DNA of 37,487 nt, taken from positions 1 through 37,487 of the forward strand of contig CAUJHW010000053.1 in the NCBI GenBank assembly GCA_963205005.1, in the 5' to 3' direction. Positions 15,039 through 37,487 of the stretch are shown here, one piece after another. Position numbers and translations under genes: made by a program. The notes beneath the pieces are model-generated. The model had not been told where the DNA came from. It did no database searches and was given only the letters and a program-made list of their open reading frames with translations. This stretch comes from Pseudomonadota bacterium. Its GTDB lineage: Bacteria; Pseudomonadota; Alphaproteobacteria; Caulobacterales; Caulobacteraceae. Numbering within the stretch: the first letter of the stretch is position 1; each line of letters opens with the position of its first letter.

Positions 15039-15763
15039 GACAGGTGTTGCCCGGAATCGACGGCGATCATCTGGCCGGTCACGGCCGAAGCATCGATCAG
15101 ATAGCGCAGGGCGGCGCCCATATGGGCGGGCGACGACGGGCGGCGCAGGAGCGTCGAGGCGACCTCGGCGTCGAATGCGGCCTGGTCCTGGTGGATCGAG
15201 GGCAGGCTGGGGCCGGGACCGATGGCGTTGACCCGGATGCGCGGGGCCAGCGCCTGGGCCAGCATGCGGGTGGCGTCCCACAGCGCCGACTTGCTCAGCG
15301 AATAGGAGAAGAAGTCGGGACCGGGCCGCAGGACCCGCTGGTCCAGAAGGTTGACGATCAGCCCCTCGCGGTCGGCGGGCAGCCGCCGGGCGAACACCTG
15401 GGCCAGGACGAGCGGCGCGCGCAGGTTGGTCTCCATGTGGAGATCCCACGAGGCGCGGTTCATGTCGGCGAAGGCGTCCTGCTCGAAGACGCTGGCGCTG
15501 TTCACCAGCAGGGTGACCGGGCCGAGCTCGGCCTCGGCCTCACCCACCAGGGCCACCGCGGCGGGTTCCTGGCGCAGGTCGCAGGTGAGGATGACCGCCT
15601 TGCGCCCAAGCGCGCGCACTTCGCCGGCGGCGGCCTCGGCCGCATCGTCGATGCTGCGGACATGGATGGCGACGTCATAGCCGGCCTCGGCCGCGGTGGC
15701 GGCGAGGACGCGGCCGATCCGCCGCGCGCCGCCCGTCACCAGTGCTGCGCCGCGGCTGGTCAT
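15035..15763 (-). CDS. Short-chain dehydrogenase, pteridine reductase/FolM-like
   Basis: 242 residues, classical SDR fold. The cofactor loop is VTGGARRIGR (residues ~9-18), the structural motif is LVNSASVF (~86), and the active site is YSLSK with Tyr and Lys around residue 155. The segment IVNLLDQRVLRPGPDFFSYS resembles pteridine reductase/FolM enzymes, which reduce dihydromonapterin or dihydrofolate. The folB overlap supports a pterin role, but substrate cannot be proven from sequence. It sits 13 bases downstream of a 26-residue membrane microprotein gene and is probably co-transcribed with it. Confidence 0.85.
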   Translation of the reverse strand: MTSRGAALVTGGARRIGRVLAATAAEAGYDVAIHVRSIDDAAEAAAGEVRALGRKAVILTCDLRQEPAAVALVGEAEAELGPVTLLVNSASVFEQDAFADMNRASWDLHMETNLRAPLVLAQVFARRLPADREGLIVNLLDQRVLRPGPDFFSYSLSKSALWDATRMLAQALAPRIRVNAIGPGPSLPSIHQDQAAFDAEVASTLLRRPSSPAHMGAALRYLIDASAVTGQMIAVDSGQHLS

Positions 15764-15776
15764 CAGGCTTGCCCGA

Positions 15777-15857
15777 TCAGTCGAGGCGGCCGAACTCGAA
15801 CAGGTTCAGCGCGGCCATCACGACGAGGAAGACGGCGATGGGGATGATCCCGGACAT
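15777..15857 (-). CDS. Membrane microprotein, 26 residues
   Basis: A short frame with ATG at 15855-15857 and TGA at 15777-15779. The protein starts MSGIIPIAVFLVVMAALN and ends with an acidic amphipathic tail LFEFGRLD. One hydrophobic helix covers residues ~4-19. A GGAG ribosome site lies 5 bases before the ATG, and the stop is only 13 bases from the FolM-like gene start on the same strand. This suggests a real first gene of the microprotein-SDR-folB operon. I do not recognise a named family. Confidence 0.6.
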   Translation of the reverse strand: MSGIIPIAVFLVVMAALNLFEFGRLD

Positions 15858-16071
15858 GGAAGCTCCAAGCTGTGTGCGACCGGCTTTAGCGGTGTGGGCG
15901 GCGGGTCGCAAGCCGCCCGAAGCGGCATTGTCACCGGGTCCGCCGAAACTTCCTTCAGGGTTACGCGGCGCGGGGGCTTTCCCCCCTGAACAGTGATCAC
16001 TAAAATGAACATCTGAAGATCGGGGCGGACGGCTCCGTCAGCCACCAAGAAACGAAGGCCAGGAGGACGTC

Positions 16072-17514
16072 ATGCGCGAATACCTCAAGTTCTATATCGA
16101 CGGGGCGTGGGTCGATCCCGCCGAGGGCCTCAAGACGCTGGACGTCGAAAATCCCGCCACCGAGGAAGTCTGCGGCAAGATCGCCATGGGCTCCGCCGCC
16201 GACGTGGACAAGGCCGCCAAGGCCGCCCGCAAGGCGTTCGCCACCTGGAGCCAGACCAGCCGCGAAGAGCGCCTGGAGGTGCTGGGCCGCATCCTCACCG
16301 AGTACCAGAAGCGCTTCGGCGACCTGGCCACCGCGGTGACCGAGGAAATGGGCGCCCCGTCATCGCTGGCCCAGCGCGCTCAGGTTCCGATCGGCATGGG
16401 CCACCTGGCCACTGCCGTCGAGGTCCTGAAGACCTTCAAGTTCGAGGAAGACCGCGGCCCGACGATGATCGTCAAGGAGCCGATCGGCGTCTGCTCGTTC
16501 ATCACGCCGTGGAACTGGCCGCTGAACCAGATCGTCTGCAAGGTGGCCCCGGCCATCGCGACGGGCTGCACCATGATCCTGAAGCCGTCGGAAGTGGCGC
16601 CGTTCTCGGGCCAGATCTTCGCCGAGATCATGCATGCGGCGGGCGTGCCCGCGGGCGTGTTCAACATGATCCAGGGCGACGGCCCCACGGTGGGTTCGGC
16701 GATGTCCAGCCATCCGGAAGTCGACATGGTGTCGTTCACCGGCTCCACCCGCGCCGGCATCGAGGTGGCCAAGGCGGCCGCCCCGACCGTCAAGCGCGTG
16801 GCGCAGGAACTGGGCGGCAAGAGCCCGAACATCGTCCTCGATGACGACGCCTTCGCCAAGGGCGTTGGCCGCGGCGTGGCCACCATGATGACCAACTCCG
16901 GTCAGTCCTGTAACGCGCCGACGCGGATGCTCGTGCCGCAGACGCGCATGGCCGAAGCGATCGCGGTGGCCAAGGCGACGGCGGAAACCGTCACCGTCGG
17001 CGACCCGAACGGCAACGCCCAGCTGGGCCCGGTGGTCAACAAGACCCAGTTCGACAAGATCCAGAAGCTGATCCAGGCCGGCATCGACGAGGGCGCGACC
17101 CTGGTCATCGGCGGGACCGGGCGTCCGGAAGGCCTCGACAAGGGCTATTTCGTGAAGCCCACCGTGTTCGCCAACGTGAACAACGACATGACCATCGCCA
17201 AGGAAGAGATCTTCGGCCCCGTGCTGTCGATCCTCGGCTACGAAAGCCTCGACCAGGCGATCGCCATCGGCAACGACACCGAGTACGGCCTGGCCGCCTA
17301 CGTCCAGGCGGCCGACCTCGACGCCGCCCGCAAGGTGGCTTCGAAGCTCCGCGCCGGCCAGGTGTCGATCAACGGCGGCGGCGGCGACATGATGGCCCCG
17401 TTCGGCGGCTACAAGATGAGCGGCAACGGGCGCGAGTGGGGTGACTTCGCCTTCCACGAGTTCCTGGAAACCAAGGCGGTCCTCGGCTACGCGCCGAAGC
17501 CGGCCGCGGAATAG
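16072..17514 (+). CDS. NAD(P)-dependent aldehyde dehydrogenase
   Basis: 480 residues, full-length ALDH superfamily. TPWNWPLNQIVCKVAPAIAT (residues ~145-164) holds the catalytic Asn148. The cofactor motif FTGSTRAG is at ~222-229 and the general base is Glu246 in QELGGKSPNIVL. The nucleophile is Cys280 in NSGQSCNAPTRM. The C-terminal EEIFGPVLSILGY and GGYKMSGNGREWG blocks are intact. It oxidises an aldehyde to the acid; the substrate is not readable. A strong AGGAGG lies 7-8 bases before the ATG, and an intrinsic terminator follows immediately. It is divergent from the microprotein-SDR-folB operon across ~214 bases. Confidence 0.95.
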   Translation: MREYLKFYIDGAWVDPAEGLKTLDVENPATEEVCGKIAMGSAADVDKAAKAARKAFATWSQTSREERLEVLGRILTEYQKRFGDLATAVTEEMGAPSSLAQRAQVPIGMGHLATAVEVLKTFKFEEDRGPTMIVKEPIGVCSFITPWNWPLNQIVCKVAPAIATGCTMILKPSEVAPFSGQIFAEIMHAAGVPAGVFNMIQGDGPTVGSAMSSHPEVDMVSFTGSTRAGIEVAKAAAPTVKRVAQELGGKSPNIVLDDDAFAKGVGRGVATMMTNSGQSCNAPTRMLVPQTRMAEAIAVAKATAETVTVGDPNGNAQLGPVVNKTQFDKIQKLIQAGIDEGATLVIGGTGRPEGLDKGYFVKPTVFANVNNDMTIAKEEIFGPVLSILGYESLDQAIAIGNDTEYGLAAYVQAADLDAARKVASKLRAGQVSINGGGGDMMAPFGGYKMSGNGREWGDFAFHEFLETKAVLGYAPKPAAE

Positions 17515-17535
17515 GGCTTAGCGCCAGACTGAGTG

Positions 17536-17566
17536 AAAGGGCCGTCCTTCGGGGCGGCCCTTTTTC
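17536..17566 (+). terminator. Intrinsic terminator of the aldehyde dehydrogenase gene
   Basis: A GC-rich hairpin (AGGGCCGTC, loop CTTC, then GGGGCGGCCCT) followed directly by a run of five T. It starts 22 bases after the ALDH stop. Confidence 0.9.
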
Positions 17567-17579
17567 GTTGCGCTGTCCT

Positions 17580-17651
17580 TCACCGCCCCCGCCTGCGGGG
17601 GAGGGGGACCGACCGCCGAGCCGAAGGCGAAGAGCGGTTGGTGGAGGGGGC
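17580..17651. repeat. Left inverted repeat flanking the DUF559 gene
   Basis: A 72-base unit starting TCACCGCCCCCGC and ending GTGGAGGGGGC. It is nearly identical, in reverse complement, to 18048-18120. The only differences are CTG versus AACG in the small loop between CCCCCGC and CGGGGG, and one A/C change. Inside, CCGACCGC and GCGGTTGG can pair, so each arm also folds on itself. Confidence 0.9.
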
Positions 17652-17661
17652 AAGCCGCCGC

Positions 17662-18030
17662 TCAGGCGCACCCACCGCCCGACAACGCCGCCACCGTAAC
17701 CAGAATGTGGTCCATTACCCAGTCGATGTCCCGATAGACCTGCGAGGCCGGGATGCGGACGACGTGGATGCCTTGCGCCGCCAGCCACCGGTCTCGCGCG
17801 GCGTCTCGCAGCTGGGCCTCATGGTCCCAGTGTGTCGCGCCATCCACCTCGATCGCGAGCTTCAGCTTGGCGCAGTAGAAGTCCAGGATGATCGACCCGA
17901 TGGGGTGCTGCCGGCGGAAAATGGGTCGATTACCGCCGCCTCCGCGCAGGCGGCTCCAGAGGATCACCTCCGGCTCGGTCATCGTCCTGCGCATCGCGCG
18001 GGCGCGGGTTGTGATGACTGTGCGTCGCAA
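17662..18030 (-). CDS. DUF559 domain protein (Vsr/PD-(D/E)XK nuclease-like)
   Basis: About 122 residues from a TTG at 18030, or 110 from the ATG at 17994; the start is uncertain. The domain has ARAMRRTMTEPEVILWSRLR at the N-terminus, then FRRQHPIGSIILDFYCAKLK, LAIEVDGATHWDHEAQLRDA and ARDRWLAAQGIHVVRIP. The acidic residues in ILDFYC and IEVDG form the very-short-patch-repair-like nuclease core of this family. Longer frames extend through the flanking repeat as a Gly/Arg/Pro-rich tract that is unlikely to be real protein. The gene is alone between two 72-73 base inverted repeats, with an SOS-box-like site just outside the right one. Its biological role is unknown. Confidence 0.8.
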   Translation of the reverse strand: MRRTVITTRARAMRRTMTEPEVILWSRLRGGGGNRPIFRRQHPIGSIILDFYCAKLKLAIEVDGATHWDHEAQLRDAARDRWLAAQGIHVVRIPASQVYRDIDWVMDHILVTVAALSGGGCA

Positions 18031-18047
18031 GGCTGTGCCGGCCGCTC

Positions 18048-18120
18048 GCCCCCTCCACCAACCGCTCTTCGCCTGCGGCTCGGCGGTCGGTCCCCCTCCC
18101 CCGCGTTGCGGGGGCGGTGA
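18048..18120. repeat. Right inverted repeat flanking the DUF559 gene
   Basis: A 73-base unit beginning GCCCCCTCCACCAACCGCTC and ending GCGGGGGCGGTGA. It is the mirror of 17580-17651 at roughly 95% identity. With the left arm it encloses a 541-base unit carrying only the DUF559 gene. Confidence 0.9.
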
Positions 18121-18121
18121 G

Positions 18122-18136
18122 GAACGTATAGTGAAC
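18122..18136. promoter_or_regulatory. LexA (SOS) box-like site, GAAC-N7-GAAC
   Basis: The sequence GAACGTATAGTGAAC is a perfect match, on the minus strand, to GTTC-N7-GTTC, the SOS operator established for Caulobacter and other alphaproteobacteria. It overlaps promoter-like hexamers on both strands. On the plus strand TATAGT lies at 18127-18132, toward the lipoprotein gene. On the minus strand TATACG lies at 18125-18130 with TTGACC 15 bases upstream, toward the DUF559 gene. Which gene it controls is not clear. Confidence 0.55.
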
Positions 18137-18270
18137 ATTTATACGGGTCAAAGTCAGCTCGCGGCAAGCCGACGTTCGGAGGTCAGAGATGGGTGGCTTG
18201 CGGGCTTTCCCCTTAAAGAGAGAGATCGAAGCTTCACCGTATCTGCACCGCAGTTTGCTAAGTTTCGCCG

Positions 18271-18621
18271 ATGGCAGCCAGATCAGCCCGCAAGCTCGTC
18301 GCCGCAGTGGTTGCAATAGTGCTGGGCGGTTGCAGCGGAGAACGGACACTCCCGAATGGCTACAAGTGGATCTCGATCTATGGCGATAGCGGCGTCATCG
18401 TCGATGGCCAGAGCCGGGTGGTGGTTGACCTGAAGGTCTCCTCGACCGCGCTCAACGTTTCAGACGAGAGCGTCTACGGGGTGAGGGAGATTGAGGAGCC
18501 GATTGGAAATCCTCCAAGCCGCGTCTCACCGGTCGAAGGTCGCTACGGGCATTTTGTGCTGAATACCAAAACTGGCGCCGTCGGTTTCCCGTCCACAGCA
18601 TCGCGGAGTGATGTCCGCTAG
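18271..18621 (+). CDS. Small predicted lipoprotein
   Basis: 116 residues. The basic start MAARSARK leads into a hydrophobic stretch and the lipobox LGGC (Cys about residue 21). The mature part is short and beta-rich: NGYKWISIYGDSGVIVDGQS, VVVDLKVSSTALNVSDESVY, and a conserved-looking end GHFVLNTKTGAVGF. I do not recognise a family. Its base composition is slightly less GC-rich than its neighbours, and it lies downstream of the DUF559 inverted-repeat unit and the SOS-like site. It is probably an envelope protein acylated by Lgt. Confidence 0.65.
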   Translation: MAARSARKLVAAVVAIVLGGCSGERTLPNGYKWISIYGDSGVIVDGQSRVVVDLKVSSTALNVSDESVYGVREIEEPIGNPPSRVSPVEGRYGHFVLNTKTGAVGFPSTASRSDVR

Positions 18622-18704
18622 GGGTAGATCTCTGGCGTTGGCCGCCGACCTTAAAACCGACATTCGCCGGCGCTCCAAGGGCTGCTCCGGAGCGCCCCCG
18701 CCCC

Positions 18705-20963
18705 CTACCCCTTCATCGCCGCCTTCACGGCCGCTGACCGGATCGGTAGGTCGCGCACCCTTGCGCCCACTGCGCGGAAGATGGCGTTGCCGATGGCCGG
18801 GCCGACGACGGTGGTGGCGGGCTCGCCCAGGCCCACGGGGGCCTCGGTGGAAGGCACGAACTCGATGTCGAGGTCCGGCACGTCGCCCATCCGCAGCGGG
18901 GTGTAGCCGTCGAGGTTGGTGTCCTTCACCTGGCCGTTCTCGAACGCCGTGCCCTCGAACAGGGCCAGGCTCATGCCCCAGAGCGCGGCGCCCTCCACCT
19001 GGGCCAGGGCCCCGTCGGGGCTGACGATGGTGCCGGCGTCGGTGACCAGGGTCAGCTTCTCGACCTTCACCGCGCCTGTGGCCGGGTTGACGTTCACCCG
19101 GGCCGCGCAGGCGGTCCAGGTGGGCATGTCGCGTTCCTGGCCGAAGGTGGTTGCGAGTCCGAGGCCGGTGTTCTTTGGCCGCGGCTTGCCCCAGCCGGCC
19201 TTGGCGGCGAGGCGCTTGAGGACGGCGGCCTGCCGCTTGGCCCCGCCGACGGCATTGGGGGCGGAGCCGGCGTTGCGGCCCGTGGCGTCCAGCATCCGCA
19301 GGCGGAATTCCAGCGGATCGACGCCCGCGGCGAGCGCGGCCTCGTCCATGAAGCTTTCCACCGCCCAGTTGGTCCAGCCGGGACCCACCGAGCGCAGCCA
19401 GCCCGGCCGGAAGGTCTCATTGGCCAGGTCGTTGCCGATGGCCCGCACCCGCTGTGCGCCGACGTTGTACCAGTGGTTGGCGCCGCTGATCGCGAAGGGG
19501 TCGTAGGCGGCGCCGTTGGCGCCCTTGGGCATGAAGAACGGCGCCATCGCCAGCGTCGGCCAGCCGGCGCAGGCGGCGTGGTCCATGGCGGTGACGCGGC
19601 CGGCCTCGCCGAACGCCATTTTCACCACCTGGACCGAGGGGGAGCGGGGGCTGTCGAAGCGGCTGTCGTCGGCGCGCGTCATCACCATCTTCACCGGCTT
19701 GCCGCCGATGGCCTTGGAGGCGAGCGCCGCGCCGACTGCATAGTCGCCGTTGAGCCGCCGCCCGAACCCGCCGCCCAGCAGGTAGGTGCGCAGGACGATG
19801 GTCTCTTCCTTGCGCCCCAGCGCCTGGGCAAGCCACGGCAGCACCAGCGACTGCCACTGGTTGCCGGTGTGGATCTCGAACTTGCCGTCCTTCTCGAAGG
19901 CCAGCGCGTTCACCGGCTCCATCTGGAAGTGCAGGGCGGTGGTGGTGGTGTAGGTGCGCTCCAGGGTGGACTTCGCTGCGGCGAAGGCGGCGTCGACGCC
20001 GGGGTCCTCGACGGCTGTCGAGCCCGAGGCCTTGTCGGCAATCAGCGCGCGGGCGCGGGCCTGCAGGTCGGCTTCGGACACCTTCGCGGCGGCGGGCGTG
20101 GCCCAGGTGACCTTCAGGGCTTCCACGGCGCGGTCGGCGGCGACGAAGCTGTCGGCATAGACCATCACCCAGCCCGGAACGGTCCCGGACGGGTCTTCCA
20201 GTGCGATGGCCCGGATGTAGCCTGGGACAGCCTTGGCGGCCGTCTCGTCAATGGCGGTGACCTTGGAGCCGTAGCGTGTCGGCGGCAGCTTCGGCCGGGC
20301 GTAGACCATCCCCGGAACCTTGGCGTCGAGGCCGTAGAGCCCCTGGCCGTTGGTTTTGCCGGGAATGTCGCGGGCCTGGGCCGGCTTGCCGATCAGGCGT
20401 CGCTCGGCGACGGGCTTCATGGGTAGCTTGCCGAGCTCGGCCTCGGTGAACTTCCGGCTCAGGTCGCCCTTCGCGACGATGTCGCCGAAGCTGACCGAGC
20501 GCTTGCCGGCCACGACGGCGCCGTTGCGGGCGATGCAGTCGGCGGCGGGAACCCCCAGCAGCTTCGCGCCCGCCTCGATCAGGGCGATGCGGCCCGCGGC
20601 GCCGGCCTGGCTGTACTGCGGATAGCTCTGCCACACCGACCAGCTGCCGCCGGTGACCATCAGGCCCCACTTGGGATCAGAATCCACGTGATCGATCTTC
20701 ACCTTCGACCAGTCGGCTTCCAGTTCGTCGGCGACGATGCGGGCGATGGCGGTGCCCACGTGCTGGCCCATCTCGGCGCGGACGATGTGGACGGTGACAA
20801 TCCCGGTCCGGTCGATGTCGTACCAGAGGGTGGGGCCATAGCTGTCGGCGGCGTCGGCCGGCGCGGACAGGCCGAACAGGGCGCCGGCGGCGCTGACGGT
20901 GACAAGGAACCCGCGGCGGGAGGGCGCGACGCTGTCCTTGGCGCTGTCGAGGGAGACGCTCAT
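18705..20963 (-). CDS. Molybdopterin-binding large subunit, IorB-type aldehyde/isoquinoline oxidoreductase
   Basis: 752 residues. A twin-arginine signal is visible ([20 protein letters not shown]), so the folded Mo-enzyme is exported. Xanthine-dehydrogenase-family large-subunit blocks follow: [60 protein letters not shown] (Mo-pterin loop), and the C-terminal [20 protein letters not shown] holding the catalytic-site Glu. This is the single-chain IorB layout, with no FAD subunit. Electrons pass to the partner 2Fe-2S protein, whose stop overlaps this ATG by 4 bases. Substrates in this family are N-heterocycles or aldehydes; the actual one is not readable. Cofactor maturation and electron-acceptor genes are not in the window. 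Confidence 0.93.
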
Positions 20964-30102: not shown

Positions 30103-30663
30103 ATGCAGGTGCTTAGGCAAGCGCCTTCGGGCTGGCCCTGCCTCGTGCTCAACGCCGACTTCCGGCCGCTCAGCTACTATCCCCTGTCGCTCTGGCCCTG
30201 GCAGGATGTGATCAAGGCGGTCTTCCTCGACCGGGTGGACGTGGTCTCCACCTACGACCAGATGGTCCGCTCACCATCCTTCGAGATGAAGCTGCCCAGC
30301 GTGGTCTCGCTGAAGCAGTACGTCACCCAGGACCGGCCCCCGGCTTTCACCCGCTTCAACCTGTTCCTGCGCGACAGCTTCGGCTGCCAGTACTGCTCGT
30401 CCTGCGACGAACTGACCTTTGACCACGTGATCCCGCGCTCGCGCGGCGGCCGGACGACCTGGGAAAACATCGTCACCGCCTGCGCGCGCTGCAACCTGGC
30501 CAAGGGCGGCCGAACGCCGGCCGAGGCCAACATGCACCCGCGCCTCAAGCCCCGCCGACCCTCCGCCCATGAACTCCAGGACCGTGGCCGCCGCTTCCCG
30601 CCGCACCATCTGCATGAGAGCTGGCTGGACTATCTCTACTGGGACATCGAACTGGAGGCTTAG
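30103..30663 (+). CDS. HNH endonuclease family protein
   Basis: 186 residues. An N-terminal domain of ~85 residues (WPCLVLNADFRPLSYYPLSL and FLDRVDVVSTYDQMVRSP) precedes an HNH nuclease: CQYCSSCDELTFDHVIPRSR then GGRTTWENIVTACARCNLAK. The CxxC pairs bind a structural zinc, and DHVIPRSRGG-x(4)-N is the HNH core. This architecture is a widespread chromosomal HNH family in alphaproteobacteria, so it is probably not part of the adjacent integrase module. TATAGT at 30001-30006 may be its -10 box. Its cellular role is not established. Confidence 0.9.
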   Translation: MQVLRQAPSGWPCLVLNADFRPLSYYPLSLWPWQDVIKAVFLDRVDVVSTYDQMVRSPSFEMKLPSVVSLKQYVTQDRPPAFTRFNLFLRDSFGCQYCSSCDELTFDHVIPRSRGGRTTWENIVTACARCNLAKGGRTPAEANMHPRLKPRRPSAHELQDRGRRFPPHHLHESWLDYLYWDIELEA

Positions 30664-30797
30664 GGCGCTTCACCTGTGCGCAACTGCGCGATGAGCCTTT
30701 GAAATACAAAGGTTCTGATGCCAGATGGCGACGCTGCTGTTCACACGGATGCGTCTGATTGTGATGACCGCGTGATGACCAGGCCAGCGGAGGGCTT

Positions 30798-32063
30798 ATG
30801 GCCGAGGCACCCCGCACGACAAAGCTGACCAAGCGCTCCGTCGACGCTGCAGCCGCTGAGATCGGCAGATATATTCTGTGGGACAGCGAACTGAAGGGCT
30901 TCGGCCTGCGGGTTGAGCCCACTGGGATCAAGACCTTCGTGGTGCGGTATCGTGTGGGTGGCGGGCGCCGTGGGACGCTTCGGCAATTCAAGGTTGGTCG
31001 CTACGGCAAGCTCACGCCGGATCGCGCACGCGAGCACGCCATCCGTGTGTTGGCCGAAGTTGAGCTTGGGAACGATCCCCAGACCGTGCGAACGCGCACT
31101 CGCGAGACTCTGACTGTCGCTGAACTTTGCGACCTCTACCTGCTGGAGGGTGTCGCCACGAAGAAACCTAGTACGGTCGCGCTGGACCGAATTCGCATTG
31201 CCCGACACATCAAGCCCTTGATCGGGACTGTGCGGCTTACCGCGCTCACAACGGGCATGGTTGAGCGAATGATGCACGACATCGCCGAAGGTAAGGTGAG
31301 GGCCGAAGCGACACCCCACACGCGCGGTGGCCCTGGCGCAGCATCCCGTACAGTGGGGCTTCTGAGCGGGATTTTCGCCTTTGCCATCAGGAGAGGCTTG
31401 TGTGCCGAGAGCCCGTCCAAAGGTGTGAAGCGTTACCGTGACCAAAGCCGCGAGCGCTTTCTGTCGCCGAAAGAACTCGGCCAGCTAGGCGACGCGCTGG
31501 CCGCGAGCGAGGCTAGCGGCGCGAATCCAAGCCATTTGGCGATCATTCGGCTACTCGCCCTCACCGGGGCTCGGAAGAACGAAATACGCTGCATCCGCTG
31601 GGCTGAAGTGGACCTAGAGGGTTACCGCTTGAACCTCGCGGATTCCAAGACTGGCAAACGAGCCGTTCCACTCGGTGCCGCGGCAGTCGAGGTTTTCGCT
31701 AGCCTCCAGCGAACGGGCGGCGGCTTTGTGTTTCCCGATCCGCGCTTCCCAGACGAGCCGATCCGCGGCCTCGATTGGGCATGGGTTCAAATTCGCAGTC
31801 GCGCCGGTCTGTCGGATCTGCGGATCCATGATCTCCGGCACTCCTTCGCGTCTATCGGGCTCGCGTCTGGCCATGCCCTGCCCATGATCGGGAAGATCCT
31901 GGGCCATGCGCATCAGTCATCGACGGCAAGGTACGCTCACCTAGCTGACGACCCCGTACGTGACGCCGTCGACCGAATCTCGTCGGCACTCGCGGGAGCT
32001 ATGACGCGTCGCGAGGCTGACGTAGTTGATCTCGCTGGACGCTTGCCCCGTGCTTACGGATGA
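30798..32063 (+). CDS. Tyrosine-type site-specific integrase
   Basis: 421 residues. An N-terminal arm-binding domain (KLTKRSVDAAAAEIGRYILW and LKGFGLRVEPTGIKTFVVRY) is followed by a core-binding SAM-like domain (~105-200) and a catalytic domain. Catalytic residues are complete: Arg259 in LTGARKNEIRCIRW, His344 and Arg347 in IHDLRHSFAS, His370 in LGHAHQSSTARYAHL and Tyr379 in the same segment. This is the DUF4102-type phage/island integrase family. The downstream gene starts inside its last codons, indicating coupling. It likely mobilised this region. Confidence 0.94.
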   Translation: MAEAPRTTKLTKRSVDAAAAEIGRYILWDSELKGFGLRVEPTGIKTFVVRYRVGGGRRGTLRQFKVGRYGKLTPDRAREHAIRVLAEVELGNDPQTVRTRTRETLTVAELCDLYLLEGVATKKPSTVALDRIRIARHIKPLIGTVRLTALTTGMVERMMHDIAEGKVRAEATPHTRGGPGAASRTVGLLSGIFAFAIRRGLCAESPSKGVKRYRDQSRERFLSPKELGQLGDALAASEASGANPSHLAIIRLLALTGARKNEIRCIRWAEVDLEGYRLNLADSKTGKRAVPLGAAAVEVFASLQRTGGGFVFPDPRFPDEPIRGLDWAWVQIRSRAGLSDLRIHDLRHSFASIGLASGHALPMIGKILGHAHQSSTARYAHLADDPVRDAVDRISSALAGAMTRREADVVDLAGRLPRAYG

Positions 32064-33024
32064 GGAGCACGCCCTGCTAGTCCGAGCTTCGCGCGACGGC
32101 CAGCGTGTTGTGGTGCAAGGAGTCGGGATTTCACTAGCCCATGAGTTGCTAGACAGAGGGGTGTGGCAGCCCGCGATACAGCTGGGGATCAACCACCCCC
32201 TAGGTGGAGGTCCGAGCCTCGTCTTGCCGTGGACACCCCCCGAGTACGTGCGCTGGATGGAGCTGAGCGGCACGGGCGACGTCATCACCGTTAGGACCGG
32301 CGACCGAGTACTTGTCAGTCACGTCCGGAGCGTATCGACCGGAAGTGCCTATGAAGACGACGACCACCCTCACAACCGCGAAATGAGGGTGGCTCATCTC
32401 TTTCTATGGCGCGCCGACGGAAGTGATGCAGATGCCGGTGTAGTTCTATTTCACGGCGTTCAGTCCACCGTCCGGCCAGGTGCCGCGGGGGATGAGAATG
32501 AGCGCATAGCGGAGGCGCTGTTCAGTCGACTTGCTGGGCGCTGCGGGTTTGATCCTCGAGACTATATCGGCGACGAGCCAGAGGATTGGCCTTCGATACC
32601 TTCGCAGCTGACCCAGGCTGAGCGGCACGCGCTCTTGTCACTCCTTGAGCATGGCGGTGATGCGACCGTCGGTTTTGGCTATTGGATGGCACGCGCGGAG
32701 GCCGAGGCGGGCATTGCCGTCCGAGCAACCAAGCTTCGCCGCAGGACCGCGAAGGCCGCATCGGATGCGCAGCCCCGAGCCCGCGCGAACAAGGCCGACG
32801 CTGACGCGCGTTGGAGGGAGCTCACGCTCGGCCTAGCGAACCGACTTAGGATGAAAGACCCCGCCATCGGGAGCCAGCCGCTTGTTGATGCACTGCTCCT
32901 GTCCGACGAGGCTCCCGAGGCTATTCCCCAGCCGGATACGCTCAAGAAGGCGATCAGAGCCTGGGAGAAGGCGGGACTCCTGCCTAGATCAACGCAGAAC
33001 CCCGCACGAAGGGGGGGGGCATAG
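32026..33024 (+). CDS. Unknown protein coupled to the integrase
   Basis: 332 residues from a TTG at 32026, with GAGG 9 bases upstream; a GTG at 32050 is an alternative. Both overlap the end of the integrase gene. I recognise no family. The N-terminal ~150 residues look beta-rich (LVLPWTPPEYVRWMELSGTG, GDRVLVSHVRSVSTG). The C-terminal part is helical and basic (KLRRRTAKAASDAQPRARAN), ending TLKKAIRAWEKAGLLPRSTQ, which looks like a DNA-binding or adaptor tail. A nine-G run at 33011-33019 lies just before the stop; losing one G would put it in frame with the next gene. Confidence 0.6.
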   Translation: MISLDACPVLTDEEHALLVRASRDGQRVVVQGVGISLAHELLDRGVWQPAIQLGINHPLGGGPSLVLPWTPPEYVRWMELSGTGDVITVRTGDRVLVSHVRSVSTGSAYEDDDHPHNREMRVAHLFLWRADGSDADAGVVLFHGVQSTVRPGAAGDENERIAEALFSRLAGRCGFDPRDYIGDEPEDWPSIPSQLTQAERHALLSLLEHGGDATVGFGYWMARAEAEAGIAVRATKLRRRTAKAASDAQPRARANKADADARWRELTLGLANRLRMKDPAIGSQPLVDALLLSDEAPEAIPQPDTLKKAIRAWEKAGLLPRSTQNPARRGGA

Positions 33025-33106: not shown

Positions 33107-33331
33107 ATGAGCCAATCTGTGACCTCCACCCCAGCCGGGTTTGACCGATACATTGATGATCGCGCGGCGAGTGAGCTCTTGGGCTTGAGCCGTTCCTACA
33201 TGCGCCAATTGCGCGTGAAGGGCGGCGGGCCTCGGTTCAGCAAGCTGTCTGCGAAAGCCATCAGGTATCGTGTCGCCGACCTATTGAGCTGGGCCGAAGC
33301 GCGATCGGTAAGCAGCACCTCCGAGCTGTAA
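33107..33331 (+). CDS. AlpA/excisionase-like helix-turn-helix protein
   Basis: 74 residues from the ATG at 33107, with GAGG 4 bases before it. It has the MerR/AlpA-like winged HTH: YIDDRAASELLGLSRSYMRQ then LRVKGGGPRFSKLSAKAIRY and RVADLLSWAEARSVS. Such proteins direct excision or activate transcription in integrase modules. It is 82 bases downstream of the unknown gene, but the reading frame is open upstream back to the poly-G tract. Confidence 0.82.
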   Translation: MSQSVTSTPAGFDRYIDDRAASELLGLSRSYMRQLRVKGGGPRFSKLSAKAIRYRVADLLSWAEARSVSSTSEL

Positions 33332-33814: not shown

Positions 33815-35917
33815 CTAGAGCTCGCGAATGACCGCTGGCGCGCCTTCGATCTCCGCGAGATCGAGCTCGAGCTCGATCCGTTGATCGGCGATCCACACCC
33901 CGGCGGTGAAGCCGCCCCAGGTGGTGATCTCCAGCTGCGCGCGATCCCCGACGAAGGCCTCGACGTACCTGTGCGGCCGGAAGGTGTCGTGCAGGAAGAA
34001 CTCGGCGGTGAGACCCTCCGCGCTAGACGTCCTTCCGTCGGCGATGACGGTGAGCGTCATCCGCACCCACTCGCTGGTAACCTCGTCGAAGGTGGCGGAA
34101 AGCGTGAAGCCCTTGCGAGCGGCGCGGCGACCGAAGCGCCCCTTGTTGGGGTCATCGGGGCAGGTCACTGGCCGTTGCAGGGCAGGCGGATCGTCCGTCA
34201 GTCGCTGGCCGTCGCTCACGGCTGCAGTGAGCTCACGCTCGGCCGCCGCCGCCTGCGCCTGGACCACGAGGCTCGGGGCCGACAGGGCTGCCGATAGCCG
34301 GTTGAGCTTCTGCGTCAGGGTGCCGCCCTGGGCGCTTGCATTCTCGGTGTTGGCCATCAAACGGCGGGTCTCCACCGACAAGGTCGACAGGATTGCCCGC
34401 GACTGATCGGCATTCCGAGATGCGGACGCGTCCAGAGATCTGGCCGTCTCCGTTAGCCGCTGAACCAAGCTCTCCGTCCTCCCGGGGGCTGCGGGGCTGT
34501 AGTCCGGCGTCCCGTCGCGGACGCGCAGTTCCTTCGCCGCTGACGCGCGCCACGCGAGCCAGGGTCCCGCCGGTGTCCGCCCGCGTGACGGCGCGCGGAT
34601 ACTACGCGTGTTGGGCACGGCTTCGGGTCGGCTTGCGCTTTCGGCCACTGCCCATCGCCAGCAGGGCTCAAACAACGGCGGCTCGGAGAGCTGCGTTGGG
34701 ATCGGAGTGGACCACGGCCCTCCACCGGCTTTCAGTTTCCAAGCCATCACGATGGCGTCGGAGAACCCCCAGTCCGGGTCGGCCGCCTGGATGAGATCCC
34801 TGGCACGGCTGCGCCACCGTACGTCTCGCGCGCGCTTGGCGGTCTGCTCGAAGAGGTCGCGCACGATGTGGCGGAGGTTCAAAGTATGGCCAACGGCCGT
34901 CATCAACAGGGATCCAAGGCCGCCGCTCGCCACGGAGACGGCCTTGGCCGCAATCTTGATCATGTCGTCGGCGGAGAAGACCTCGTTCTCCAGTCCCGGG
35001 GTCTCCCCCTGCTCGAGCCGCAGCAGGATCAAGGCCGCGGCCGCCAACTTCATCAAAGGGTCGGTTTCAGATCGGGACAGGACCTCAAAGGTGCCGGCGT
35101 CCAACGGATTGCCGTTGGTCGCCAGCGCATGCTGGAGCAGCTCCGCCAGTCGGATTTGCTCGGCGCCCTCCAGCGCAGTGGTCCCCGACGCCACGGTGAC
35201 GATCCGCGTCGCTGCCTCATTCACGCCGACCCGCTTCTCTAGCCGCGGCGCCGCCGAGCCGGTTGCATTCAACTGCAGGCAGCTGGTGAGCTGCAGGAAG
35301 ACGAGGGTGCGCCGATCGGGCAAGGCGGGGATCGTCTGTTCGACAGAGGCCCCCGACATGGACCTGAAGCGGATGCGGTGGTCGCCGCGGCTCACATGGT
35401 AGAGGCGCACCGGGGTCGCCGAGAGGGTCCCGACGGACGTCGGCTCCGCGGAGAGCGCCACCGGATCGAAGCGCATGGCCACATCCTTGGCGTTGAACAC
35501 GCGGAGCGATTCGAGTTCCGCGGCGTCAAAGTCGACCCCGCGCTCAGCCCGGACGAAGACGACAATATCGGCCTCGCCGGCGCGCCAGGTGGCGCCGGAG
35601 GGTGCGCGCGGCGGCTGGCCGGCGACCGCGGCAACCGCGAGCGTGCCGCCCTGAATCTCCGACGGGAGGTCGCCCTGCGGTAGTCGCAGCGGCTCTGCGA
35701 TGGCGAACAGGCGGTGGATCTCCTGGTGCACCTGGCCGCCTGCGAGCCACTTGATCACATAGATGCCTTCCGGCAGGTCGGCCTTGAGGCTGTTGGAGCC
35801 GCGCGCGGCAAGGTTGAAGTTTCCGTCCAGCACCTGGATCTCCACTCCAGGCGGGCCTGTCACGATCAGGGAGCCTGTCGGGCGGGAGGCCGCGACCTTC
35901 GCGTCAGAAGGACTCAT
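33815..35917 (-). CDS. Large protein with C-terminal prokaryotic-YEATS-like domain
   Basis: 700 residues, no signal peptide or clear membrane helix. Residues ~14-75 form a small beta-sandwich (GSLIVTGPPGVEIQVLDGNF, LPEGIYVIKW), PEGA-like. A second beta-rich part (~100-230) and a long helical middle (~240-600, with LTETARSLDASASRNADQSR) follow. Residues ~602-700 read as a pYEATS-like immunoglobulin-type fold: FTLSATF, VRMTLTVIADG, EFFLHDTFRPHRYVEAFVGD and LEITTWGGFTAGVWIADQRI. The FxLHxTFxP and WGxFT signatures are the basis of this call. The start has GGAGG 6 bases upstream and overlaps the caspase gene by 14 bases, so the two proteins are made together. The protein may be the sensor or substrate of the protease; that is inference. 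Confidence 0.7.
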   Translation of the reverse strand: MSPSDAKVAASRPTGSLIVTGPPGVEIQVLDGNFNLAARGSNSLKADLPEGIYVIKWLAGGQVHQEIHRLFAIAEPLRLPQGDLPSEIQGGTLAVAAVAGQPPRAPSGATWRAGEADIVVFVRAERGVDFDAAELESLRVFNAKDVAMRFDPVALSAEPTSVGTLSATPVRLYHVSRGDHRIRFRSMSGASVEQTIPALPDRRTLVFLQLTSCLQLNATGSAAPRLEKRVGVNEAATRIVTVASGTTALEGAEQIRLAELLQHALATNGNPLDAGTFEVLSRSETDPLMKLAAAALILLRLEQGETPGLENEVFSADDMIKIAAKAVSVASGGLGSLLMTAVGHTLNLRHIVRDLFEQTAKRARDVRWRSRARDLIQAADPDWGFSDAIVMAWKLKAGGGPWSTPIPTQLSEPPLFEPCWRWAVAESASRPEAVPNTRSIRAPSRGRTPAGPWLAWRASAAKELRVRDGTPDYSPAAPGRTESLVQRLTETARSLDASASRNADQSRAILSTLSVETRRLMANTENASAQGGTLTQKLNRLSAALSAPSLVVQAQAAAAERELTAAVSDGQRLTDDPPALQRPVTCPDDPNKGRFGRRAARKGFTLSATFDEVTSEWVRMTLTVIADGRTSSAEGLTAEFFLHDTFRPHRYVEAFVGDRAQLEITTWGGFTAGVWIADQRIELELDLAEIEGAPAVIREL

Positions 35918-37025
35918 GGGTCACCTCCGGGCCGCTGTGCTGGAAGGCCGAGGCCTTCTTCTTGTCCGGGGTCTCGAGAGAATAGAAGGCGCCGGCCGGC
36001 AGGGGCACCTGCAGCGCCTGCCCCCGCGTCACACCGGTGAAAGTGCGGATCAGCCGGGCCTTCCCGTCGCGCAGTTCCACAACGGGATAGTCGGCGGTGA
36101 AGGTGATCTCGATATCGACGTCGGGATCGATGGGGGGCGCGGTGAGCAGCGGGAACTTCGGGTTGCGCGGGCTGATGTCGAACTGGGGGTACTGCTTCTC
36201 CGGCGCCACCACCTCGATGATCGCAGTCTCGACGTACGATTCGAGGCCGTTGAGCGTCAGGGTTTGGTTGTCGTCCCGATGCCGACGCAGGCCGTCGAGC
36301 AGGACCTTTGAAAAGGCGCCGCGTTGGGGGTCCGCGGCCGGGGCCTCAAAGGCCACCGCGCCAAAGTCGGCAGCGCGGCCGACGCCATAGTTTCGCTTCG
36401 CACCCTGTACCGCGCGCATCATCGCCAGGGACGGCGGCGTGGTGCTCGGGGTGATCTGGGCGCGGCAGCAATCCAGAAACATGACGACTTGGGTGAAGCC
36501 CAGCGCCAGCAGGCCATTGCGCAGGTCATCGCAAGGAAGCAGGCCCAGGGCGATCGGACTCTCGGGTTTGAATTCGGCGGTCACGAAGCAGGTCTGCGCC
36601 GCCTGCGCGCTTTCGATCGTCGTGGTCTGCAATCCGTGACCCGCCAAGAAGACGTAGAGGCGGTTTTCCGTCCGGGTGGCCTTCGCCACGCGAGCGGCGG
36701 CCAGAGCGGTCAAGGCGATCTCGGGCGTCCGGGGCGGACGACCCTGCGCCATCGGGTGCAGTTTGACCGGCTCGCCGTCCTCCTCCTCGTTCGCGGCGTC
36801 GGCCCAGGGACTCGGAGACGTCAGGAAGGTGGATAGGGCGGCGCTCGGTTGGGCGGGCGCCGGGTGGGTCCAGAAGAACAGGTCCTCGGGCGCTACGCCA
36901 CCGCCATTGGGATGCAAGGCCCAATCGGCGAAGTCGGCCGCATCGGCGACGGCGCCCTTCAGCTCCGTCTGCCGGCTGGCGGCCGGATAGGCGTTGATGC
37001 CGACGACGATGGCCCAGTTGCGCAT
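35904..37025 (-). CDS. Caspase-family (C14) cysteine protease
   Basis: 373 residues. The caspase-fold core is MRNWAIVVGINAYPAASRQT at the start, RLYVFLAGHGLQTTT with catalytic His130, and VVMFLDCCRAQITP with catalytic Cys187 (the Cys after Asp-Cys). Residues ~220-280 hold GAFSKVLLDGLRRHRDDNQT, the usual end of the p10-like part. A C-terminal ~90-residue beta domain (DVDIEITFTADYPVVELRDG, RGQALQVPLPAGAFYSLE) is added. The ATG at 37023-37025 follows the stop of the upstream hydrolase-like gene by 2 bases, and its end overlaps the YEATS-like gene by 14. No Shine-Dalgarno is evident, so translation is probably coupled. Confidence 0.9.
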   Translation of the reverse strand: MRNWAIVVGINAYPAASRQTELKGAVADAADFADWALHPNGGGVAPEDLFFWTHPAPAQPSAALSTFLTSPSPWADAANEEEDGEPVKLHPMAQGRPPRTPEIALTALAAARVAKATRTENRLYVFLAGHGLQTTTIESAQAAQTCFVTAEFKPESPIALGLLPCDDLRNGLLALGFTQVVMFLDCCRAQITPSTTPPSLAMMRAVQGAKRNYGVGRAADFGAVAFEAPAADPQRGAFSKVLLDGLRRHRDDNQTLTLNGLESYVETAIIEVVAPEKQYPQFDISPRNPKFPLLTAPPIDPDVDIEITFTADYPVVELRDGKARLIRTFTGVTRGQALQVPLPAGAFYSLETPDKKKASAFQHSGPEVTHESF

Positions 37026-37027
37026 GG

Positions 37028-37487
37028 TCAAGAGAGGAACACCGCGGCGCTGGCGAGGGTGCGCGTCTCGGAGTCAAAACCGCCGTGGCTGTCGCTGTGG
37101 CTGGAGAACCCCGGCGGCCCATCCTGCTTCGAGTAGATCACGTCGTGGTTTTTGAGGAACGCCTGCACCTGGTGCGTCGCCGCAATCTGCGAAGCGTCCT
37201 TCAACCAAGCGGGGTCCGGACCCAGGAAACGCTGCATGCCCAGGATCGGCGCGTCGACAAACCCTTCGTCGCCATCTTCCTCGAAGAGGGCCGAGACAAG
37301 GTACAGGAGAGACATCGGGTAGATGTAGCCCTTGTCGTGGCCCAGCACCGCGTCGGTCCGCTCCAGAGCGTCCGACATGGTGAACATGCGCAGTCGTCCG
37401 ATGTTCTGTCCGCCGACCTTCAGCGCCTGGGCGAAGCGGTCCATGCGGACGGCGGGCGCCAGGAGCACCAGGTCGATGGTCGGCGGC
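37028..37487 (-). CDS. Alpha/beta-hydrolase-like protein (C-terminal part, runs off the window)
   Basis: The reading frame is open to the right edge, with TGA at 37028-37030. The visible ~152 residues begin PPTIDLVLLAPAVRMDRFAQ and continue IGRLRMFTMSDALERTDAVL, GYIYPMSLLYLVSALFEEDG and FVDAPILGMQRFLGPD. The end, SSHSDSHGGFDSETRTLASA, places a His in a typical late catalytic position. The order (LLAPAV strand, SLLYLVS helix, APILGM strand, then DSHGGF) fits the C-terminal half of an alpha/beta hydrolase. The nucleophile region lies outside the window. It is the gene just upstream of the caspase gene, with 2 bases between stop and start. Confidence 0.6.
   Translation of the reverse strand, partial: PPTIDLVLLAPAVRMDRFAQALKVGGQNIGRLRMFTMSDALERTDAVLGHDKGYIYPMSLLYLVSALFEEDGDEGFVDAPILGMQRFLGPDPAWLKDASQIAATHQVQAFLKNHDVIYSKQDGPPGFSSHSDSHGGFDSETRTLASAAVFLS

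Follow-up and report, generated by a model that had tools for sequence, protein, structure and literature searches.

We describe here a three-gene operon in a 37,487-nucleotide (nt) stretch of DNA, hereafter the window, from a bacterium of the family Caulobacteraceae (assembly GCA_963205005.1). The window is an entire contig (CAUJHW010000053.1, here C53), one of 183 in the genome, and it ends inside the operon, which encodes on the minus strand, as a single tightly spaced unit, the C-terminal fragment of an alpha/beta hydrolase, a caspase-family protease and a protein of 700 amino acids (aa) ending in a pYEATS domain (Table 1). Two bases separate the hydrolase stop codon from the caspase ATG and the caspase and third genes overlap by 14 nt, as had been described in the original prediction, which was made from the sequence of the window before any database search; the identical 14-nt overlap is present in eight other loci. 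An alternative TTG start at position 37031 would give a caspase of 375 instead of 373 aa.

A trio inherited together

A genome-wide scan with an alignment of the caspase yielded 48 loci (L numbers below). The third-protein family was delimited in these loci with an iterated profile, run to convergence against all open reading frames (ORFs) of at least 60 aa, and a member was found immediately downstream of the caspase gene in 31 loci and fused to it in one (L031), i.e. in 32/48. Apart from a second frame in L020 and the window copy, no further ORF of the 48 loci appeared at E < 1 in this search, and the 16 loci without the third gene (L027, L032, L036, L038-L050) match the caspase less well, at E 2e-11 or worse. 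Caspase and third protein share one 829-aa reading frame at L031:2141-4630, and in the draft genome bearing L020 the third gene is split across two frames (L020:10022-11668).

Upstream of the caspase, an alpha/beta hydrolase is present in 25 of the 32 third-gene loci, 22 recovered by phmmer with the window fragment and shorter ones in L028, L035 and L037, the last recognised by eye. A matrixin-like metallopeptidase of 224-245 aa, carrying HEFGHALGLIHEH, replaces the hydrolase in L012, L013, L016, L019 and L021 (Pfam Matrixin in L012 at E 6.6e-5, slightly under the cut-off); L009 is broken by a contig end and L031 has another ORF in this position. The species concerned include Mesorhizobium, Bradyrhizobium, Azospirillum, Pseudomonas, Streptomyces, Planctomycetota, Acidobacteria, Chloroflexi and others. 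When the window and 23 loci were compared all against all (leaving out L014, L015, L017, L018, L020, L022, L023, L026, L031, L035 and L037), and antisense shadow frames were set aside, four families alone turned up in more than three loci: the caspase (24/24), the third gene (24/24), the hydrolase (17) and the matrixin (5). Furthermore, in the 22 of 32 loci with a phmmer-detected hydrolase the pairwise distances of the three proteins correlate with one another at r 0.955-0.978, and among eight proteobacterial loci at 0.80-0.92, with 0/2000 permutations as high. The trio is a real and widely inherited unit, and the co-occurrence of its genes elsewhere, on which the original prediction had been made to depend, is borne out by these counts.

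The distribution is broad and sparse. The Sinorhizobium meliloti plasmid pSymA carries the trio under the annotations hypothetical protein, caspase family protein and pYEATS domain-containing protein, and the caspase occurs in four plasmid records. A strong caspase match was found in 2/36 genomes of the same genus, namely the window's own and one other (G017), in which the reading frames of the locus (L054) match those of L004, a Phenylobacterium metagenome-assembled genome, which makes Phenylobacterium the probable host genus of the window. Among the matches listed for a class-wide sample, with up to three candidates per genome scored, the third protein was found in 1/385 genomes, again the window's own, which suggests that it is rare across the class.

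Table 1 Features of the window discussed in the text (positions in the window).
Feature	Position	Strand	Evidence or remark
Third gene, 700 aa: two beta-sandwich domains, helical middle, C-terminal pYEATS	33815..35917	-	ORF, Pfam, family across phyla, AlphaFold2
pYEATS domain, residues 620-688	33854..34060	-	Pfam; PDB profile alignment to YEATS2
N-terminal beta-sandwich, residues 13-86, CNA-B/gingipain-tail-like	35660..35881	-	
Caspase-family protease, 373 aa; all-beta C-terminal domain at about residues 292-373	35904..37025	-	
Overlap of caspase stop and third-gene start, 14 nt	35904..35917	-	ORF coordinates
Catalytic His130 codon	36636..36638	-	Invariant in 27 aligned caspases
Catalytic Cys187 codon, DCCR motif	36465..36467	-	Invariant in 27 aligned caspases
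Alpha/beta hydrolase, C-terminal fragment, 152 aa	37028..37487	-	Runs to contig end
Candidate attachment repeat, 3' end of HNH gene	30629..30672	+	44-bp copy (91%) at G000:C72:22912-22955
Tyrosine recombinase (Phage_integrase and Arm-DNA-bind_3)	30798..32063	+	Pfam
Small HTH_17 protein	33107..33331	+	HTH_17 29.4 bits, cut-off 27

Caspase, hydrolase and third protein

The protease belongs to the caspase superfamily by score (Pfam Peptidase_C14, 32.5 bits against a cut-off of 21.4), by its His/Cys dyad and by fold. Both catalytic residues (His130 and Cys187, numbered on the 373-aa form), already named in the original prediction of a complete caspase, are invariant in an alignment of 27 sequences chosen from 120 listed, and the structure model has the caspase fold and resembles the MALT1 paracaspase. 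Among the VIA matches listed, only residues 1-297 of the model are covered; the region from 292 to 373 is all-beta. The more specific NCBIfam model NF047832 (EACC1-caspase) gave 38.9 bits against a cut-off of 140. Asp28 (D28), which also does not vary among the 27 aligned caspases, was paired with the Asp of the NDA stretch of metacaspases by a single weak profile alignment, in which this portion scored 1.2 bits. MALT1 and metacaspases are specific for arginine, a preference in which their S1 Asp has a role, and the caspase of the trio is predicted to cut after arginine as well.

The window's hydrolase fragment has no Pfam match and is called a hydrolase because its full-length relatives of about 500 aa are alpha/beta hydrolases, which upholds the earlier description of an alpha/beta-hydrolase-like protein. 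It is 55% identical to residues 356-508 of the 508-aa hydrolase of L003 and keeps HGGF, the motif of the C-terminal catalytic His. The nucleophile Ser (GHSxG/AHSAG) precedes HGGF in the relatives; in the window protein this region falls beyond the contig end, and the rest of the gene was not found elsewhere in the assembly of its own genome. The Pfam matches of the relatives vary, with DUF900 above the cut-off in L010 and L008, Thioesterase above it in L035, alpha/beta hydrolase families below it in L006, L022, L028 and L033, and none in L003 and L024.

Each of two arginines (R121 and R244 in L003), set in otherwise variable linkers, is kept in 22/23 full-length hydrolases. They lie 110-128 residues apart, between the N-terminal part with its conserved H-x-H-G stretch and the catalytic part, and the residue that follows is Gly, Ala or Ser in 20/22 of the Arg-bearing rows at the first site (the remaining two have Asn and Thr) and in 22/22 at the second. 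The 62 columns conserved at 90% or more contain five Arg, and these two alone combine isolation with a small residue in the next position. An Arg followed by a small residue fits cleavage by para- and metacaspases, and the two positions are candidate cut sites for an Arg-specific caspase; the complete window protein would be expected to carry them too.

In the third protein, modelled by AlphaFold2 with a mean pLDDT of 82.5, the predicted C-terminal YEATS-like domain was recovered by Pfam as pYEATS (PF20305; 45 bits against a cut-off of 26.9). This tail is present in 9/9 alpha- and gamma-proteobacterial loci (L003-L011) and in 0/15 third genes scanned from other lineages, or 0/14 informative ones, since L019 is cut off before the tail region. 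The pYEATS domain is a lineage-specific tail, one of several on a larger conserved protein. At L029:4613-18751 the tail of the third protein is common to two flanking NACHT-FGE-sulfatase proteins, of which a paralogue is located at 15395-18751.

Prokaryotic YEATS domains were reportedly named in a 2020 paper in the Journal of Bacteriology, and pYEATS is said to have been proposed as an immune sensor domain. A PDB sequence search with a profile of 11 pYEATS tails returned three sequences at E <= 1, all of them YEATS2 (E 0.40-0.43). In this profile alignment H643, T645, F646, W667 and G668 of the window protein fall on H259, S261, Y262, W282 and G283 of YEATS2, so that F646 and W667 are the equivalents of the aromatic sandwich Y262/W282, and the two aromatics are spaced by 21 residues in the window and 20 in YEATS2. 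The HxSF/HxTF motif is found in 13/13 pYEATS proteins and the second aromatic in 12/13 (Val in P0003). According to the accessible text of PMC5651844, Y262 and W282 of YEATS2 clamp acetyl-lysine, and alanine mutation of sandwich residues disrupted binding; in that of PMC6212594, AF9 uses F59 and Y78, and the YEATS proteins of human and yeast, AF9/ENL excepted, generally have a WG motif. On these residue matches, the alpha- and gamma-proteobacterial pYEATS tail probably binds acylated lysine. In the literature searched, which mostly did not extend to subscription papers, nothing was found on pYEATS, on prokaryotic YEATS or on pYEATS together with a caspase. PMC7159879 was considered as a link between YEATS and caspases and set aside, two of its three occurrences of the word, in the accessible text, being the author name Yeats.

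A probable insertion at the HNH gene

Nine of the ten same-genus loci that were inspected are colinear with the window up to 30.67 kb; in the tenth (L101), near its contig end, only the HNH gene matched. All ten lose similarity at 30659-30672, where the HNH gene has its 3' end. The left edge of an insertion is hereby established, and a tyrosine recombinase stands just inside it, in line with the integrase that the original prediction had placed beside the trio. Between the recombinase and the trio lie a 332-aa protein (32026-33024) with no family above the cut-off and the small HTH_17 protein, which appears excisionase-like.

The 44-bp copy of the candidate attachment repeat lies on another contig of the same genome (C72). 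From about 2 kb past this copy, C72 is colinear (78-80%) with the sequence after the HNH gene in L093, L098 and L102, where it follows the gene directly (L093) or after 0.8-1.1 kb (L098 and L102). Integration at the 3' end of the HNH gene by the adjacent recombinase could leave such a pattern, apart from about 2 kb that it does not explain. The C72 repeat has on its inner side two RES-domain proteins (L103:10190-11440 and L103:18991-19593, one of them cut by the contig end), a PLD-like protein just under the Pfam cut-off, and the known anti-phage pair IetA and IetS (L103:11824-15556, beside the repeat), identified by PADLOC at E 1.9e-153 and 5.5e-302, respectively; ietAS is named among defence systems in a table of PMC10286901, as far as its accessible part goes. 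The insertion on C53 and the IetAS stretch on C72 are probably one continuous island.

A putative protease-activated module

The reading that we prefer, at a probability of roughly 0.5, is that the trio is an island-borne three-gene proteolytic module for defence or cell death, with a pro-hydrolase activated by the caspase. The third protein, with its double beta-sandwich, helical core and exchangeable tail, would sense or transmit a trigger and control the MALT1-like caspase encoded by the overlapping gene. The active caspase would cut the neighbouring alpha/beta hydrolase at the two Arg-small sites, and cleavage would free or remove the segment of 110-128 residues between them and thereby activate the enzyme. 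Once released, the hydrolase would kill or arrest the infected cell, probably through an action on lipid or some other cellular component, and in alpha- and gamma-proteobacteria the pYEATS tail, probably through acylated lysine, would help to set the trigger.

The cleavage step is proposed by analogy with two systems in which pro-nucleases are activated, as described in the accessible text of PMC12799240. In Canu (KaeCanABC), the caspase complex CanAB turns the pro-nuclease CanC, which has two gating insertions, into an active nuclease, and in Hachiman a trypsin-type protease activates HamM, which has two insertions, each with a conserved isoleucine at the cleavage site. As far as that text describes Canu, the trio resembles it in having three genes, a MALT1-like caspase followed by a C-terminal beta region that may correspond to the Ig-like domain found there in Canu, a partner protein and a separate effector with two candidate cut sites. 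The trio differs in its presumed effector, an alpha/beta hydrolase or matrixin as opposed to the metallo-beta-lactamase (MBL) nuclease of Canu, in its partner, which carries pYEATS or other tails, and in its gene order, the effector gene lying upstream in the trio and downstream in Canu. Comparison with surrounding genes relied on neighbour proteins picked by hand, 20 from 13 other loci for Pfam and 10 for PADLOC. No MBL match was found with Pfam in the three window genes or these 20 neighbours. A lipid target of the hydrolase is suggested by analogy with bacterial death-domain systems, where alpha/beta hydrolases serve as membrane-lipid hydrolases (PMC8195603, accessible part).

A caspase adjoining an alpha/beta-hydrolase gene, as in 25/32 third-gene loci here, is also a feature of the VMAP MoxR-vWA ternary systems (Kaur et al. 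2020, PMC7159879, in its accessible text). However, in the trio the caspase stands by itself and has a distinct third-gene family for a partner, and the hydrolases are alike by description. The MoxR, vWA and VMAP core genes are not part of the conserved unit, as no further family occurs in more than 3/24 loci; among the 20 neighbours Pfam gave no vWA match and one AAA ATPase, in L010. The trio shares the logic of Canu and of this hydrolase-caspase pairing and has the defining core of neither. PF20305 itself is above its cut-off in the trio, but there it is one of several tails of a larger protein. No description of the free-standing trio, the metallopeptidase swap or the two arginine sites was found in the literature searched, from which subscription papers were mostly absent.

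The original prediction cast the caspase as effector and the 700-residue protein as sensor, a scheme that stands in part. Of the prediction as a whole, the co-inheritance of the trio, the caspase fold, the pYEATS tail, the integrase and a probable defence-island setting are upheld; the scheme is not supported as it was put, pYEATS being a variable part of the third protein. Since the hydrolase looks acted upon, with two conserved Arg, and a metallopeptidase takes its place at five loci, a caspase acting as effector seems less likely than a caspase acting as activating protease. Type IV Thoeris, in which a caspase-like protease kills by broad proteolysis, offers the model for the former: the trigger would set the caspase of the trio loose on many host proteins, with the hydrolase or metallopeptidase in an accessory role, making, removing or cutting a regulator. 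The trio resembles type IV Thoeris, as far as the accessible sources describe it, in having a caspase-family protease within a compact operon, and the upstream slot swaps between unrelated enzymes around a constant caspase and third gene. Swapped partners are usually the effectors, however, and the MALT1-like fold with the candidate double Arg sites fits a specific, initiator-type endopeptidase. The accessible text of PMC12799240 cites a caspase-like immunity that TIR signalling drives; Pfam gave no TIR match in the trio or the 20 neighbours scanned, and no further family recurs in more than 3/24 loci. We consider this explanation unlikely. The order of action could also be reversed, with the hydrolase or metallopeptidase processing or activating the caspase and the third protein giving the output. 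The upstream gene is indeed first in the operon, matrixins are peptidases that could process a caspase, and the tail shared in L029 with the NACHT-FGE-sulfatase proteins looks like an adaptor to further effectors; the two Arg-small sites of the hydrolase would nevertheless be left unaccounted for, and such an order appears highly improbable.

Activation of the hydrolase by the caspase has several observations weighing against it. The two arginines may be structural instead of cut sites: seven other conserved hydrolase columns are likewise isolated, the second Arg of L004 is placed one position earlier, the first is absent in L030, and the 152-aa fragment of the window stops short of both. In the five loci where a matrixin fills the hydrolase slot, activation by cleavage is conjectural. 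Shared species history accounts for part of the distance correlation. As for the island, its far end is on a different contig with the gap between C53 and C72 unassembled, and only 3/10 relatives match C72 beyond the repeat, the other seven matching the short repeat only. Of the ten neighbours scanned with PADLOC, seven had no match, two matched protease models and one matched weak ATPase models only. A 776-aa protein near the trio in one locus (L003:14435-16765) gave a PADLOC trypsin-like match at E 3.9e-22.

The role in phage defence is also a matter of weighing. The caspase was not found in 50,697 phage records or in viral contigs, and on S. meliloti pSymA the trio adjoins a lysozyme-domain protein and a DUF2235 protein, both of which would suit a module for stress-related or developmental cell death, or a part of interbacterial conflict, with no anti-phage role. 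Such a role fits poorly with the sparse distribution within the genus, the integrase at the edge of the insertion and the presence of IetAS in what is probably the same island, and we hold it to be rather improbable. An anti-phage function of the trio is conjectural in our reading. The boldest form of that reading we regard as possible but doubtful: an immune module, widespread and so far undescribed, whose Arg-specific bacterial paracaspase activates a pro-hydrolase through removal of an internal segment at two sites, and whose alpha- and gamma-proteobacterial version is gated by a YEATS acylation reader.

Bacterial caspases are increasingly seen as parallels of the proteases of animal cell death. 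The trio is a compact and widely inherited unit in which a predicted substrate lies next door to the protease with two candidate cut sites, and in which a YEATS fold keeps the positions of the acyl-lysine cage. At stake are the purpose of the repeatedly noted pairing of hydrolase and caspase and what a YEATS domain reads where there are no histone tails; if the boldest reading is true, a shift in lysine acylation would be the sign by which the bacterium perceives infection or disturbed metabolism.

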